Positions 19,842-33,702 of a DNA stretch of 59,343 nucleotides are shown piece by piece. Under the pieces are notes generated by a model. The model had not been told where the DNA came from. It searched no databases and saw only the letters and a program-made list of their open reading frames with translations. A program made the translations under genes and the position numbers. Every line of letters starts with the position of its first letter. The first letter of the stretch is position 1. Origin of the DNA: an uncultured Bacilli bacterium (GTDB taxonomy: Bacteria; Bacillota_I; Bacilli_A; ML615J-28; CAG-313); contig CANQDG010000010.1 in the NCBI GenBank assembly GCA_947591495.1, forward strand, positions 1 to 59,343. Reading direction: 5' to 3'.

Positions 19842-20666
19842 ATGGGGAAAGTTATGTGGGGAATTTTAATTAGTTTTGTAATCATTTTTCTTATTGGACT
19901 AATTATTAGACAACTTTATTTAAGTTTTGTCAAAAAGTATAGTATCTTACTTAACAAAGTCCAAGAAATTAATAAAAGATATGCCTTCTATAAATTTTCT
20001 TGTGAATGTGATTTAAGCCATACTTATGATAATGAAAAATTTTTTCAGAATATTTCCGAAGAAGATTATTTAATTTATCAATTACAATTTTATAATTATA
20101 AAAATAAAGTTCTTAATCAAATTGGTTTTATGAATTACAATTACCTTAATTTTCCTAAATATCAAAATGAAATTAAAGAGCTTACGATTAAAAACGAATA
20201 TTCCAAAAAGCCAAAAGGTTATGTAGTTAAACTTTTAAATTATTATGAAAATAAATTATATCAAAAAAGTTTACAAAAGCCAGTTACTAGTTTTTATCTT
20301 AAAGTCACTTTATATTTAGCTAAAATTAATGGCCAAGTATATAATAAAAAAGAAAAAAGTTTTACTAGTGAAAGAATTAAAAATTTAGTAAATAGACTAA
20401 AAAATAAAAATGGTGATTTCTATTTAGATAAAGGTATTTGGGATGCAATCAGTCGGGTTGAAAGAGGTCGTGTTACAAATAAGTTGCGGTTTGCGGTATA
20501 CAAAAGAGATGGATATCGCTGTAGGTATTGTCATCGCAGCCAAAATGTAGCCGTGTTAGAAGTTGATCATATTATACCAATAGCGAAAGGTGGCAAATCA
20601 ACTTTTAATAATTTACAGACTTTGTGTCATGATTGCAATAGTTCAAAAAGTGATCGACTTTTATAA
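19842..20666 (+). CDS. Membrane-anchored HNH-family protein
   Basis: 274 residues. A hydrophobic N-terminal segment (about 5-28) is followed by a Lys/Tyr/Asn-rich, mostly helical middle (30-200) of no recognised family. A four-cysteine HNH domain ends the protein (about 213-274): CRYC, VDHIIPIAKGG, FNNLQTLCHDCN. These are the normal zinc and catalytic positions, so the nuclease fold looks intact. The start at 19842 has AAAGGA upstream; MWG at 19854 is a possible alternative. There is no terminator before parE, 43 bases downstream, so it may be co-transcribed with topoisomerase IV. Whether it cuts DNA, and why it sits at the membrane, is unknown. Confidence 0.8.
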   Translation: MGKVMWGILISFVIIFLIGLIIRQLYLSFVKKYSILLNKVQEINKRYAFYKFSCECDLSHTYDNEKFFQNISEEDYLIYQLQFYNYKNKVLNQIGFMNYNYLNFPKYQNEIKELTIKNEYSKKPKGYVVKLLNYYENKLYQKSLQKPVTSFYLKVTLYLAKINGQVYNKKEKSFTSERIKNLVNRLKNKNGDFYLDKGIWDAISRVERGRVTNKLRFAVYKRDGYRCRYCHRSQNVAVLEVDHIIPIAKGGKSTFNNLQTLCHDCNSSKSDRLL

Positions 20667-25172: not shown

Positions 25173-25192
25173 ATTGCGAAGAGGTGGAAGAT

Positions 25193-27238
25193 ATGATAAG
25201 AGTTGCAATCGATGGACCAGCAGGATCTGGTAAGTCAACAATTGCTAAAAACTTAGCTAGCAAACTAGATTTTGAATATATTGACACCGGTGCAATGTAT
25301 CGTGCCATTACCCTCAAAGCCTTAAAATCTGGCATTAATTTAGAAGATGAATCTCAATATACTTTTTTACAAGACACCGTTTTAGACATCCAAAATGGTA
25401 AATACATTATGGATGGCGAAGATGTTAGTGAAAGCATTCGTTCCGTTTTAGTTACTAATAATGTTTCAACTCCTTCTAAATTAGAAGTTGTGCGAAATTA
25501 TTTAGTTAATTATCAACGTAAAATTTGCAATCAAAAAAATTGTATTGTTGATGGTCGTGATATCGGTACGGTTGTTTTACCCCATGCTGAAGTTAAAATT
25601 TATCTTGATGCGACCATTGAATGTCGGGCGCGTCGCCGGATGCTTGAAAGAAAAGAAAAAGGTATTAATCTTACTTTAGATGCAACAATCAAAGAAATTG
25701 AGCTTCGTGATTGGAAAGATTCGACGCGAAAAATTAGTCCTTTAAGATGTCCAGAAGATGCTTTCGTAATTGATAGTACGGAGTTATCAATTGATGAAGT
25801 AGTTAGTCAAATTATAAAATTAATAAATGAGAGGTCAAAAAAAATGAGCAAACATACTTATTATGAAGGTCAATCTGTTAGAGGAATGATCATTAATGTG
25901 ACAAGAGATGCAATTTACTTAACTCTTGATGATGAAACCAAAGCGGTTATTTATGATAATGATTTAAAATCATATCAAGAAGGTCAAAAACTTTATGATA
26001 TTTATCATGAAGGTGAAGAATTTGAAGCTTTAGTTAAACAAGTAACTAAAGACAAAAAAACACAAGAACCACTTTGTATTTTATCAACTAAATTAGCTGA
26101 TGAAAAAGCTAAACTTTCTTTATTTGAAAAACTTAAAGAAGATGATGAAATCTTTAAAGCCAAAGTCACTAAAGTTACATCAGCTGGAGCTGATTTAGAA
26201 TATGAAGGCGTTAAATTATTTTTACCTAGCAAATTTATTGACTTAAAAGAAGAAGCATTAAGAACCCTTCGTGGTCAAACTTTAGATGTTATGGTAGTAT
26301 ACGTTAACAAAGATCATTTACAAGTTACAGTTTCTAATATAATGGCGATGAAAAAACAACATCGTCTTGCTAAAGAAGCGGCTTTTGCGGCCTTAGAAGA
26401 AGGAATGGTTGTTGAAGGTGAAGTTGTTAACATTTTACCATACGGCGCTATCGTTAGTTTAGGTGAGGTAAGTGGTTTATTACATCAAACTGAAATTGAT
26501 CACAAGCTTGTTCGTAATGTGGCATCTCATTTACAAGTAGGACAAAAAGTAAAAGTTAAAATCTTAGAAATTAAAGATAACAAAATTGCTCTTTCAATGA
26601 AAGCTCTTGTTAAACATCCATGGGAAGTTTTAAAAGAACAATATCATGTTGGTGATATTTTTGATGGATTAGTTGAAAAAATCATTCCTGCTGGCTTAAT
26701 TATTAAATTAACTGATGATTATGCTGGCTTAATGCCAAGAGTTGAATATTCATGGTTTACTAATGTAAAACTAGAAGATGAAGTTCATGAAGGCGATACT
26801 TTAAAAGTTAAAATTAAAAATATCGATGATGCAAAAAAACGTGTAAGCTTATCTCATAAAGAAACACTTGAAAATACTTGGGCTGATATTAAACTACAAC
26901 GTGGTGATACCATTGATGTTGTAATCGCTGAAATAAACGATAAAGGTGCCCTTGTTAATTACAAAAATGTTCAAGGCTTCTTACCTGTTAGTGAAGTTAC
27001 TTCAGCGAAAAGAATTAACCGGGTAGATGAGGTTTTCGCAGTTGGTAGCACAGTTAGTGTAATGGTTAGAGAATGTGATCCAAGTGTTGCCAAACTTCGC
27101 GTTAGTGCTAAGGCTCTTGAAATTGCGAAAGAAAGAGCAACCTTTAATAAATATTTTGCAGAACAAGAAAAAGAAACACCAACTAGCACAATTGGTGATC
27201 TAATCGGTAATTTTGATATAAAGAAAGAAGACAAATAG
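25193..27238 (+). CDS. cmk: Cytidylate kinase fused to a five-domain S1 RNA-binding protein
   Basis: 681 residues from ATG 25193 (AGGTGG 5 bases upstream); the in-frame GTG at 25184 is part of that RBS. Residues 1-217 are a complete Cmk: P-loop DGPAGSGKST, YIDTGAMYRA, VDGRDIGTVV, CRARRR. It phosphorylates CMP and dCMP. Residues 218-681 carry five S1 domains (about 226-290, 318-383, 403-475, 487-560, 571-642), like the YpfD/RpsA-type protein encoded just after cmk in Bacillus. The join is at an A8 tract, where an RBS-like GAGAGGT and an in-frame ATG (25844, codon 218) remain. With seven A's, Cmk would end TCA AAA AAA TGA, overlapping that ATG. The fusion may therefore be recent, slippage-controlled or a sequence error. 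S1 protein may be made separately from the internal start. Confidence 0.9.
   Translation: MIRVAIDGPAGSGKSTIAKNLASKLDFEYIDTGAMYRAITLKALKSGINLEDESQYTFLQDTVLDIQNGKYIMDGEDVSESIRSVLVTNNVSTPSKLEVVRNYLVNYQRKICNQKNCIVDGRDIGTVVLPHAEVKIYLDATIECRARRRMLERKEKGINLTLDATIKEIELRDWKDSTRKISPLRCPEDAFVIDSTELSIDEVVSQIIKLINERSKKMSKHTYYEGQSVRGMIINVTRDAIYLTLDDETKAVIYDNDLKSYQEGQKLYDIYHEGEEFEALVKQVTKDKKTQEPLCILSTKLADEKAKLSLFEKLKEDDEIFKAKVTKVTSAGADLEYEGVKLFLPSKFIDLKEEALRTLRGQTLDVMVVYVNKDHLQVTVSNIMAMKKQHRLAKEAAFAALEEGMVVEGEVVNILPYGAIVSLGEVSGLLHQTEIDHKLVRNVASHLQVGQKVKVKILEIKDNKIALSMKALVKHPWEVLKEQYHVGDIFDGLVEKIIPAGLIIKLTDDYAGLMPRVEYSWFTNVKLEDEVHEGDTLKVKIKNIDDAKKRVSLSHKETLENTWADIKLQRGDTIDVVIAEINDKGALVNYKNVQGFLPVSEVTSAKRINRVDEVFAVGSTVSVMVRECDPSVAKLRVSAKALEIAKERATFNKYFAEQEKETPTSTIGDLIGNFDIKKEDK
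25829..25846 (+). promoter_or_regulatory. Internal RBS and start of the S1 part, at an A8 tract
   Basis: GAGAGGT (25829-25835) lies 8 bases before ATG 25844-25846, which is in frame with cmk. The eight A's at 25837-25844 are the only thing that keeps the two reading frames joined. The site has the form of a normal gene start, so a 464-residue S1 protein can be expected regardless of the fusion. Confidence 0.7.
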
Positions 27239-29706: not shown

Positions 29707-32700
29707 ATGATAAAGTTATCTAAAAAATTTTATTTGTTTTTTGCATTAGTTAGTGCACTTTTAGTACTAACATCATGTGCGACAATTTTAAATGGTTACA
29801 AGATTAGCTTAGATGATAGCGAATATCAAATAAGACTTGGTCAATCATTAGAAATTAATCCCACAGTTACTCAAAATAACGAACCATGTGAAGTGAAACT
29901 TGTTTTTCACTCATATAATGAAGAGGTTGTTAGTTTTGAGGGAAATGTATTAACAGCTAAAAAAGCTGGTACTGCTAAAATTAAAGTAGCTATTGCTGAA
30001 GATACCAAAGTATATGATACCGCAATCGTTACTGTAGTTGATGATGCTTCACTTGAAGCAGAATTCGTTTATGAAAAACATATGATAAAAGGTAAAACGC
30101 AAGAAATCACTTACCATTTTGTTAATGGTGATGATACAAGAGTTCTTGACTTTGTTTCTCAAAATGAAGATGTTATTCAAGTAGTTAATCATAACCAATT
30201 GAAAGCAGTTGGTAAAGGTATTGCGATTGTTGAAACAAGAGTATATTCAACCTTTGATGAAAGAATTTATCTTGATTATGAATTTGAAATTACGGTTGAT
30301 TATCAAGATTACACAATCGAATATGATTTTAGTGGTGGCGTAGAAGATGAACATTTAAATCCAATGACATATAACGAAGGTAGTGATTTTGTTTTAAATA
30401 ATCCTACAAGAGAATATTATAAATTTGACGGCTGGTATAATGGTGAAGTTAAAGTTGAACGCCTTGCAGGTGATCAAACTGGTGATTTAACACTTAAAGC
30501 TCATTGGATTCCTGAAGAATATCATATTAATTATGTTTACGAAGGTGGACACGAAGGAACTGCTAATCCTACCACATACAATGTTGAAAGTGACTTTACT
30601 TTAAATAGCCCTGTAAGAGATGATTACGAATTTGTTGGTTGGTTTAGTGGTGATACAAAAGTTGAAAAATTAGCCAACGGCTTACATGGTGATCTTACAT
30701 TAGTTGCTCGTTGGGCAGCAAAATCATATCATATTACATATGACTTTGCTAAAGGAACAGAAGATCCTGCTTTAAATCCTACTACTTATTCAGTTGAAAG
30801 TGACTTTACCTTAAAAGCTCCTACCAGAGAGCATTATGAATTTGTTGGTTGGTTTAATGGTGATGTTAAAGTAGAACACCTTGCAGGTGATCAAACAGGT
30901 GATCTAACACTTACTGCTCATTGGGAAGCAACTAAATATAGTGTTACTTATGAGTTTGCAGGTGGAACTGTAGATAATAATTTAAACCCTGCTACTTATA
31001 CTGTCGAAGATAACTTTACTTTAAAAGCTCCTACCAGAGCTGGCTATGATTTTACTGGTTGGTATGATGAAAAAGGCACCAAAGTAGAACATCTTGGTGG
31101 CGATGTAACAGGCAATTTAAAATTAACCGCTCAATATGATGAAATATTTAATAAGATTAGTGATGTTTTAGATGCTAGTTTTACAGGCACAGCCAAAGTT
31201 CGTGGTATTGTTGTTGCCGTATACAATGAAGGTTTACTATTAAAAGATGAAACAGGTTATATTTTAGCTTATAAAGCATCAACTGAACCAAATTTTGCAA
31301 AGGGTGATTTTGTTAAAATTGAAGGCACAAAGGGTAATTATAATAATTCTACTCGATTTGAATATACAGAAATTACTGCTTTAGATAGTGAAATCGAAGG
31401 CCTTGAATTACCTAACGATAGTTCATTAGTTAAAGCAACTGCTGAAAATGTTGATAATGCTTATGATAATAGTTCATATAATGAGTCATATTTTGAATTC
31501 ATTTTAAAATTATCAAGTACAGGAACTTATGTTAATGCACCATTAGAAGGCGCAAAAGTAACGATTAGTTTAAAATTATCAAAAGCAAATAGTGCAGGTC
31601 TTTCAACAGCATTTGGTAAATATTATCGTGTAAAAGGTTACTATATTAATAATTCAGTGCCATCATATTTCAATGTTATTGTTGCTGAAATAACTGAACT
31701 TACTGCTCAAGAAAAAGTAGATATAACATTTGATAACCTTGGCGAAATTAGTTTACCAGAATTTTATAAAGATGGTGAAACATTTATTGAACCAGAAGTA
31801 AGTAGTCCATTTGAGGATGTAAAATTCAAATGGGAAGTTATTCCTAGTGAATTACTTGTTGAAGATATATGGGTTATTACAGAAGATGGTAAGGCAACAA
31901 TAAAATTAACAATTACTTGTGAAACTGCAACAAAAGAAAAGAATTTTGATGTTAATGTTAAATGTATTTCTGGTCAAGAAAAAATTGATGCTGTAATGGA
32001 ACAACTTAATAGCATGTTGATTCCTGATCAATTTAATGGTGATCCATTAAATATTCCTACTTTCAATTTAATAGAAGGCGTAAGTGTTGATTGGTCAGCT
32101 GATAATTTAATAGATGGTAAATGGAGTGTTACTAGAAATGTAACAACAACTCTTAAGGCTACAGTTAGCTTTGAAGGAGCTGATTCCAAATCCAAAGAAT
32201 TTACAAATGTTAATGTTTATGCTTTCTTTAGATACGAATTTGCAGAAGTTGGTGAATATTCTTTAGTTACTGATGTAAATGATTTAGAAATAGGCGCTAA
32301 GATTATTATAGTTGCAAAAGATAGCAATAAAGCAATGGGTGCCCTAAAAACCAATAATTTTTCTGAAGTTGATATAGTTAAAGATGGTAACATAATTAGA
32401 GATGTAACTGACGTTACTATTATAATTTTAGAAAAAGGTTTAAAAGATGGTCAATTTGCTTTAAAAGTTGGTGATAAATATTTATACGCAGCTTCTTCAG
32501 GTAGCAACCATTTGAAAGAGGAAGACACGTTGACTGTTAATTCTAGTTGGACTATATCAATTAATGGTGGTGTTACTAGTATTATAGCAACAGATAGTTC
32601 AAATCGTAATATTTTAAGATATAATAGCAATAGTAATTTATTCTCATGTTATGCATCAGGACAAGATGAAGTACAAATTTTTAAATGCTCTAAGATAAAA

Positions 32701-33702
32701 GTAGGTATTGACGAGGAAACGTATGCAAATCAATTATGGGAACAACTTGAAAATATAATTCAAAAAGAAGTAAAAGATGAGTTAACATTAGATGATTTAG
32801 ATGGAAAAATAACATGGACAATGGATGAGACTTATGAAATATATGCTCTTTTAGAAGATAATTATCTTGTCGTTGACCAACAAGAGGAAGACACAATTAT
32901 TAAATTGGTAGCTCATTTCCTTGAATTTACTAAAGAATTTGAAATAACAATTTTGGCAAAAGAAAAAGACATGACTGATGAACAAATCAATGCAATTTTA
33001 GATAGTATACTTGAAGAAATTACTGATACTATTCCTGCTGAAGAGGATTCAATTGCTTTACCTTCTAGTGATTCTCATATTTCTTACTCAATCGCATCAG
33101 GTGATGCAGGAAAAGTATCTGGCAATACATTAACAGTTAAACATCCTAATGGCAGTTCTGATGCAGAGATTACATTACGTGTTACATACGAAATTAATGA
33201 AAAATCACTTTATAAAGATAAAATTATTAAGATAGTAGCAGTTCAAGCTGTTGAGAAAACATATAAACATACTTTTGTAAGTGGTGATTTTAAAGTATCT
33301 TCAAATACAACTAATGGTGGAACTGCTGATTTATCTGGAATTAATTGGACTTATACTGCAGTTAAAACTTATTTTGCTTTTAATGGAACAGATGGTTATC
33401 AAATAGGTAAAAAGAATACTGCAGGAGGTAATTTTACATTAACTACTAGCGATATTAAAGGTAAAATAAAGAAGATAATAATTAATGGAAGATTACAAAG
33501 TGGTAGCGATGCTGCAATTGAAGTAACAGTAAATGGTTCTATTGTTGGAAGTAGAACAAAATTTAAAGGAACTTCATTAGTTGATCATGCTTTTGAACTT
33601 GGAACACCTACAGCAGGCGAAATTAAAATAGCTTTCATTTCTAGTGCTGCATATGCATATTTTATTAAATCTATCACAGTTGTATACGAAGAAACATTAT
33701 AA
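29707..33702 (+). CDS. B-repeat surface lipoprotein with OB-like and putative ligand-binding modules
   Basis: 1331 residues. The signal peptide ends in LTSC (Cys24). Two Big-type Ig domains (about 30-110 and 118-200) precede four InlB-type B-repeats of about 69 residues (about 202-476; FVGWF and LTAHW motifs). At about 483-575 is an OB-fold-like domain (GTAKVRGIVVAVYNEGLLL, GDFVKIEG) of a kind often found next to secreted nucleases. Ig-like stretches follow, then a domain at about 848-995 (EYSLVTDVNDLEIGAKIII) and a C-terminal beta domain (about 1185-1331) that may bind ligand. No catalytic motif was recognised, so an adhesin or binding role is more likely. Paralogue of the next gene: nearly the same N terminus (KLSKKFYLF). 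It has its own promoter and terminator. Confidence 0.8.
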   Translation: MIKLSKKFYLFFALVSALLVLTSCATILNGYKISLDDSEYQIRLGQSLEINPTVTQNNEPCEVKLVFHSYNEEVVSFEGNVLTAKKAGTAKIKVAIAEDTKVYDTAIVTVVDDASLEAEFVYEKHMIKGKTQEITYHFVNGDDTRVLDFVSQNEDVIQVVNHNQLKAVGKGIAIVETRVYSTFDERIYLDYEFEITVDYQDYTIEYDFSGGVEDEHLNPMTYNEGSDFVLNNPTREYYKFDGWYNGEVKVERLAGDQTGDLTLKAHWIPEEYHINYVYEGGHEGTANPTTYNVESDFTLNSPVRDDYEFVGWFSGDTKVEKLANGLHGDLTLVARWAAKSYHITYDFAKGTEDPALNPTTYSVESDFTLKAPTREHYEFVGWFNGDVKVEHLAGDQTGDLTLTAHWEATKYSVTYEFAGGTVDNNLNPATYTVEDNFTLKAPTRAGYDFTGWYDEKGTKVEHLGGDVTGNLKLTAQYDEIFNKISDVLDASFTGTAKVRGIVVAVYNEGLLLKDETGYILAYKASTEPNFAKGDFVKIEGTKGNYNNSTRFEYTEITALDSEIEGLELPNDSSLVKATAENVDNAYDNSSYNESYFEFILKLSSTGTYVNAPLEGAKVTISLKLSKANSAGLSTAFGKYYRVKGYYINNSVPSYFNVIVAEITELTAQEKVDITFDNLGEISLPEFYKDGETFIEPEVSSPFEDVKFKWEVIPSELLVEDIWVITEDGKATIKLTITCETATKEKNFDVNVKCISGQEKIDAVMEQLNSMLIPDQFNGDPLNIPTFNLIEGVSVDWSADNLIDGKWSVTRNVTTTLKATVSFEGADSKSKEFTNVNVYAFFRYEFAEVGEYSLVTDVNDLEIGAKIIIVAKDSNKAMGALKTNNFSEVDIVKDGNIIRDVTDVTIIILEKGLKDGQFALKVGDKYLYAASSGSNHLKEEDTLTVNSSWTISINGGVTSIIATDSSNRNILRYNSNSNLFSCYASGQDEVQIFKCSKIKVGIDEETYANQLWEQLENIIQKEVKDELTLDDLDGKITWTMDETYEIYALLEDNYLVVDQQEEDTIIKLVAHFLEFTKEFEITILAKEKDMTDEQINAILDSILEEITDTIPAEEDSIALPSSDSHISYSIASGDAGKVSGNTLTVKHPNGSSDAEITLRVTYEINEKSLYKDKIIKIVAVQAVEKTYKHTFVSGDFKVSSNTTNGGTADLSGINWTYTAVKTYFAFNGTDGYQIGKKNTAGGNFTLTTSDIKGKIKKIIINGRLQSGSDAAIEVTVNGSIVGSRTKFKGTSLVDHAFELGTPTAGEIKIAFISSAAYAYFIKSITVVYEETL

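Follow-up and report, generated by a model that had tools for sequence, protein, structure and literature searches.

Proteins in which cytidylate kinase (Cmk) or ribosomal protein S1 is joined in frame to another domain have been annotated before. Protein TP0279 of Treponema pallidum is named a bifunctional cytidylate kinase/ribosomal protein S1 and is 863 aa long (PMC3373638), while NCBIfam models already exist for IspH (LytB)-S1 (NF000907; PRK00087), in which an enzyme also stands N-terminal to S1, and for Cmk-Der (PRK09518), which, like PanC-Cmk (PRK13477) and AroA-Cmk (PRK11860), joins Cmk to another partner. Ribosome profiling has further identified pairs of in-frame starts in infB, clpB, mrcB and other genes, with stronger Shine-Dalgarno (SD) sequences at the alternative site (PMC11005335), and overlapping genes can be translationally coupled at a stop/start junction (PMC6728339). 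The gene described here, from an uncultured Bacilli bacterium, shares features with each of these systems. As in TP0279, Cmk and S1 form a single protein, but Treponema is a spirochete and, compared by name and length, its fusion presumably arose independently. The N-terminal partner is IspH in IspH-S1 and Cmk here, where no IspH domain precedes the S1 part, and der, which is fused to Cmk in PRK09518, is a separate gene downstream. Like the proteoform pairs, the gene is predicted to give two products of one frame, the shorter from an internal start preceded by a strong SD; it differs from them in that each of its starts belonged to a gene that was once separate, the short product being a whole ancestral protein. 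The cmk/S1 junction of unfused relatives is such a stop/start overlap, whereas fused lineages have no stop codon separating cmk from S1. A limited literature search turned up no paper that describes Cmk-S1 from Bacilli or reports, for any such fusion, an internal start of S1.

The gene lies in a contig of 59,343 nucleotides (the whole stretch analysed, hereafter the window), which belongs to a 1.51-Mb genome assembled in 48 contigs. A single frame on the + strand, open from GTG 25184 or ATG 25193 to TAG 27236-27238, encodes 681 aa counted from 25193 (25193-27238), with Cmk as residues 1-217 and S1 as residues 218-681; it is flanked by a gyrA/parC-like gene on one side and by der on the other. 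The cmk start is preceded by an SD region at 25173-25192 (+; GAAGAGGTGGAAGAT; duplex energy, −10.7 kcal/mol). At the junction the letters read AAT GAG AGG TCA AAA AAA ATG AGC, in which GAGAGG (25829-25834, +) is an internal SD that codes for Glu-Arg, the A8 tract (25837-25844, +) spans a Lys-Lys spacer plus the A of ATG, and the ATG (25844-25846, +) is both the S1 start and Met218 of the fusion. A sequence-only reading of this locus had described the single Cmk-S1 frame, the SD and ATG at its junction, and the TCA AAA AAA TGA that deletion of one A from the tract would create, and the window letters and domain matches confirm all three. Thirteen matches were returned by a promoter scan, with 10.1 expected. 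Elsewhere in the window, an open reading frame of 274 aa whose C-terminal part has an HNH-like motif (CRYCHRSQNVAVLEVDHIIPIAKGG...CHDC) is found at 19842-20666, just upstream of a gyrB/parE-like gene, and positions 29707-33702 encode a protein of 1331 aa that looks secreted, begins like a lipoprotein (LLVLTSC) and contains repeats resembling InlB-B units (YDFSGG...GWYNGEVKVERLAG).

Both halves of the frame were supported by Pfam and NCBIfam. The Cmk half (217 codons, 25193-25843, +) matched Cytidylate_kin (PF02224) at residues 4-212 (8.7e-73; 244.9 bits against a cut-off of 26) and TIGR00017 cmk (225 bits against 135.55), and the P-loop and DGRDIGTVVL stretches were conserved in the alignment. 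By these curated cut-offs it is a full-length cytidylate kinase, with predicted CMP kinase activity, and it was the single Cmk match in its own genome. The S1 half (464 aa, 25844-27238, +) has at least four S1 domains, with four Pfam S1 stretches, and solved bS1 structures aligned to residues 225-649 in two stretches (2e-48). The NCBIfam bS1 equivalog cut-offs were not reached, the best scores being 266, 255 and 253 bits against 624, 524 and 368; the first of these was to the S1 part of IspH-S1, far under that family's cut-off. The half is therefore so called solely from its domain content and its synteny (cmk-S1-der). It was the sole multi-domain S1 found in its genome, the next match being a 114-aa frame with a single S1 domain. 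An AlphaFold model of the fusion, built from a three-sequence alignment, had a mean pLDDT of 46.7 and was set aside.

The distribution of the fusion was determined in 43 genomes of the same order and in other genomes, all from the same class. A Cmk-only search found Cmk in 37 of the 43 order genomes, and in 36 of these 37 the frame continued from Cmk into S1. All five genomes of the genus share the in-frame fusion, as do 11 of the 12 Cmk-bearing genomes of its own family (f1) and all 25 of the sister family (f2), including one (G021) in which the frame enters masked bases (N). Seven more fused genomes were found outside the order but within the class (five in f8, one in f15 and one in f21), giving 43 fused junctions in total. 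These genomes are mostly metagenome-assembled, and because they are related to one another, fused junctions cannot be counted as independent cases. A tree built from 77 Cmk sequences placed the order in one well-supported group, with 36 fused sequences and one separated sequence. The fused label had to change seven times on this tree, and strongly supported branches made at least four of these changes unavoidable. The presence of the fusion throughout the genus and the order indicates that it is neither an error nor recent. It had been proposed that the fusion might be recent, or that it hangs on one base of the A8 tract, and neither proposal holds: the junction is order-wide and most fused junctions do not have any long A tract. 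A sequencing or assembly error, with the genes really separate, would suit a homopolymer in a draft metagenome-assembled genome, but we give this almost no credence because genus and order relatives carry the same in-frame junction, mostly without the homopolymer.

All 43 fused junctions had an in-frame ATG at the same place (42 or 45 nt beyond a reference residue), and Met218 was invariant while the surrounding residues varied in sequence and length. Each junction also carried an SD: GAGAGG or GAAAGGGG in f1, AGAGGT or AGAGGA in f2, GGGAAGGTG in f8, AAAAGGAGA in f15 and AAGGTAGGT in f21. The host is represented by a metagenome-assembled genome without a 16S 3' end, and duplex energies were computed with the standard Bacilli anti-SD, assumed for this host. 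The 43 junctions ranged from −7.5 to −11.5 kcal/mol (mean, −10.1), which is like the real gene starts of the window (−10.7 for cmk, −10.0 for the gyrB-like gene and −9.3 for the gyrA-like gene). The window junction itself is at −7.5. Internal Met codons of the same genes (n = 419) had a mean of −2.4, with 2.9% reaching −6 kcal/mol, and synonymous resampling of the junction peptide gave a mean of −5.9; the SD and ATG at the junction thus exceed chance.

Codon usage at the junction pointed in the same direction. In f1, the junction Arg was the top synonymous outlier among 195 invariant degenerate columns (score 12.7; next, 2.4), with AGG in 11 of 11 genomes, yet AGG accounts for only 12 of 319 Arg codons elsewhere. 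The junction Arg also ranked first of 82 such columns in f2 (score 8.8; next, 5.3), with AGA in 24 of 24. All other invariant Arg columns used three to six different codons each. Relatedness does not explain this ranking, since the phylogeny is common to all columns. The AGG of f1 and the AGA of f2 suit the letters that follow them, each retaining a GAGG or AAGGGG core. Most single-genome synonymous tests in f2 did not reach significance, since Glu-Arg-Gly encoded by common codons will often produce an SD anyway; the f2 case depends on the codon-column test. In the youngest fusions, the SD could just be inherited from the overlapped state. Taken together, these alignments support selection on the old S1 start at synonymous sites, so that the survival of that start, noted earlier from the window letters, is borne out and strengthened, and free S1 from the internal start is a likely second product.

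The f2 fusions have a long acidic linker between the two halves. This linker (L019-L034, L088-L101) is variable and Glu-rich, stands directly after the internal ATG and in some members has internal repeats, e.g. EEVQDPKVEETVV in L030; free S1 from the internal start would carry this acidic stretch at its N-terminus.

Unfused relatives provided a comparison for the junction. Where S1 was found next to cmk, its start in most cases fell 1-35 nt upstream of the cmk end or at most 3 nt downstream of it, with the SD inside cmk (the S1 start could not be placed in G202, and the sequence taken from nine others yielded no S1). These relatives use the same SD and ATG as the genuine S1 start. In f15, one species has separate, overlapping genes (TTG AAA AAG GAG AAA TAC C ATG) and another, represented by the single-contig genome G188, has the fusion (TTG AAA AGG AGA ATT ACC ATG), the two differing by one base between SD and ATG. 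The opposite change was found in G010 of f1, where GGC TTA GTT TAA A ATG replaces the GGC TTA ATT AAA ATG of its congeners: the junction is longer by one base, the TAA that ends Cmk is separated by a single base from the S1 ATG, and S1 retains its SD. This looks like a fusion reversed, the genes having been re-separated by a single base. In another f1 member, the 96%-complete G008 (L103, contig C23), S1 was found at 1507-2922 with GAAAGGGG...ATG before it; no recognisable cmk was detected there, the only match elsewhere in that genome being a weak 31-residue P-loop match. The one-base differences in f15 and G010 indicate that the fused and separate states are one indel apart and that the S1 start is the constant. 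The suggestion that one base separates fused from separate genes thus stands as an evolutionary statement, but not as dependence on the A8 tract. On the Cmk tree, the fusion state changed at least four to seven times, with the S1 start retained every time. Fused and unfused Cmk/S1 also occur side by side in f8 (L069-L074, L081-L083) with an identical SD stretch (TTTTAGGGAAGGTG), making this family a good place for dating the gain and loss of the fusion.

These observations bear on what the gene produces. One alternative is a simple obligate fusion, in which Cmk-S1 is the sole product and the SD and ATG are relics. The gene is one open frame, stable across an order, in a genome with no second S1 or Cmk gene, all of which would suit this explanation. 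A relic SD would, on the other hand, drift synonymously, whereas no synonymous site in f1 or f2 is under stronger constraint than the Arg codon that forms part of it, and the SD and ATG were kept in every fused junction, several independent fusions included. We therefore regard an obligate fusion as unlikely.

Less probable still is a slippage switch, in which RNA polymerase or ribosomes slip on the A8 tract to give some free Cmk that ends at the TGA over the S1 ATG, coupled to S1 initiation. The A8 and ATGA are truly present at the junction, in most f1 genomes the ATG is overlapped by a TGA in the +1 frame, and A-run slippage in bacteria climbs steeply with run length (PMC5574713). Programmed slippage would call for a conserved slippery run and a conserved alternative-frame stop, but A8 was found in 3 of the 43 fused genomes (G000, G003 and G004); congeners G001 and G002 read AAAAACAAAATG, with at most A5, and the longest A run in the remaining fused genomes was five or fewer. 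The +1 TGA results from the conserved Ser codon AGY that comes after the ATG. In addition, the switch would need loss of one A, which would be the rarer event: in E. coli and Buchnera transcripts, slippage errors in A/T runs are mainly insertions, and deletions are seldom linked to such runs (PMC5574713). Nor is the tract remarkable in itself: ordinary genes of the window contain other A8 tracts, and the six sense A8 tracts counted in its coding DNA are fewer than the 16.1 ± 2.3 obtained after synonymous-codon shuffling, a deficit that avoidance of long A runs would produce. The A8 tract is thus incidental to the fusion, and slippage, which the sequence-only reading had offered as a switch, is not borne out as a conserved mechanism and would be at most low-level noise.

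The explanation that we consider clearly the most probable is a dual-start fusion gene that yields both Cmk-S1 and free S1, and the frame does contain a second in-frame start with its own SD. Ribosomes starting at cmk (25193) would read through into S1 to give the 681-residue Cmk-S1, other ribosomes would start at the internal SD and ATG (25829-25846) to give free S1 of 464 aa, and free Cmk would not be a planned product. In the ancestor, the 3' end of cmk would have contained the SD and start of S1, with overlap of the two reading frames; gain or loss of single bases between this SD and the ATG would then have aligned the frames and fused the proteins, leaving the S1 start undamaged, and such alignment appears to have occurred several times, with one reversal (G010). 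The analysis shows that the two genes are fused, that the fusion is conserved and that the internal SD is under constraint. From this we infer that both products are made, with free S1 serving translation and the fusion acting as the source of CMP kinase activity, which may be tethered to S1 and RNA; because no other Cmk was found in the genome, the fused product must supply the CMP kinase. Attachment to S1 may be neutral, a by-product of frame alignment that the cell tolerates, or it may be useful; that the fused product serves a purpose is a possibility that we hold only tentatively.

These results describe a simple and repeatable route by which overlapping neighbour genes may fuse while the downstream product is retained, and the fused, unfused, re-separated and cmk-lost genomes form a natural test set for why an enzyme would be tied to S1. 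Automated gene calling would give one bifunctional protein here and overlook free S1. It is conceivable, though we would not expect it, that across the order selection keeps both Cmk-S1 and free S1, that the relative strength of the two starts sets the ratio of tethered kinase to free S1, and that overlapping genes arrived at this state several times as their frames became aligned. Should S1 in the fusion retain its binding to ribosomes or mRNA, the CMP released by mRNA decay might be recycled in place.
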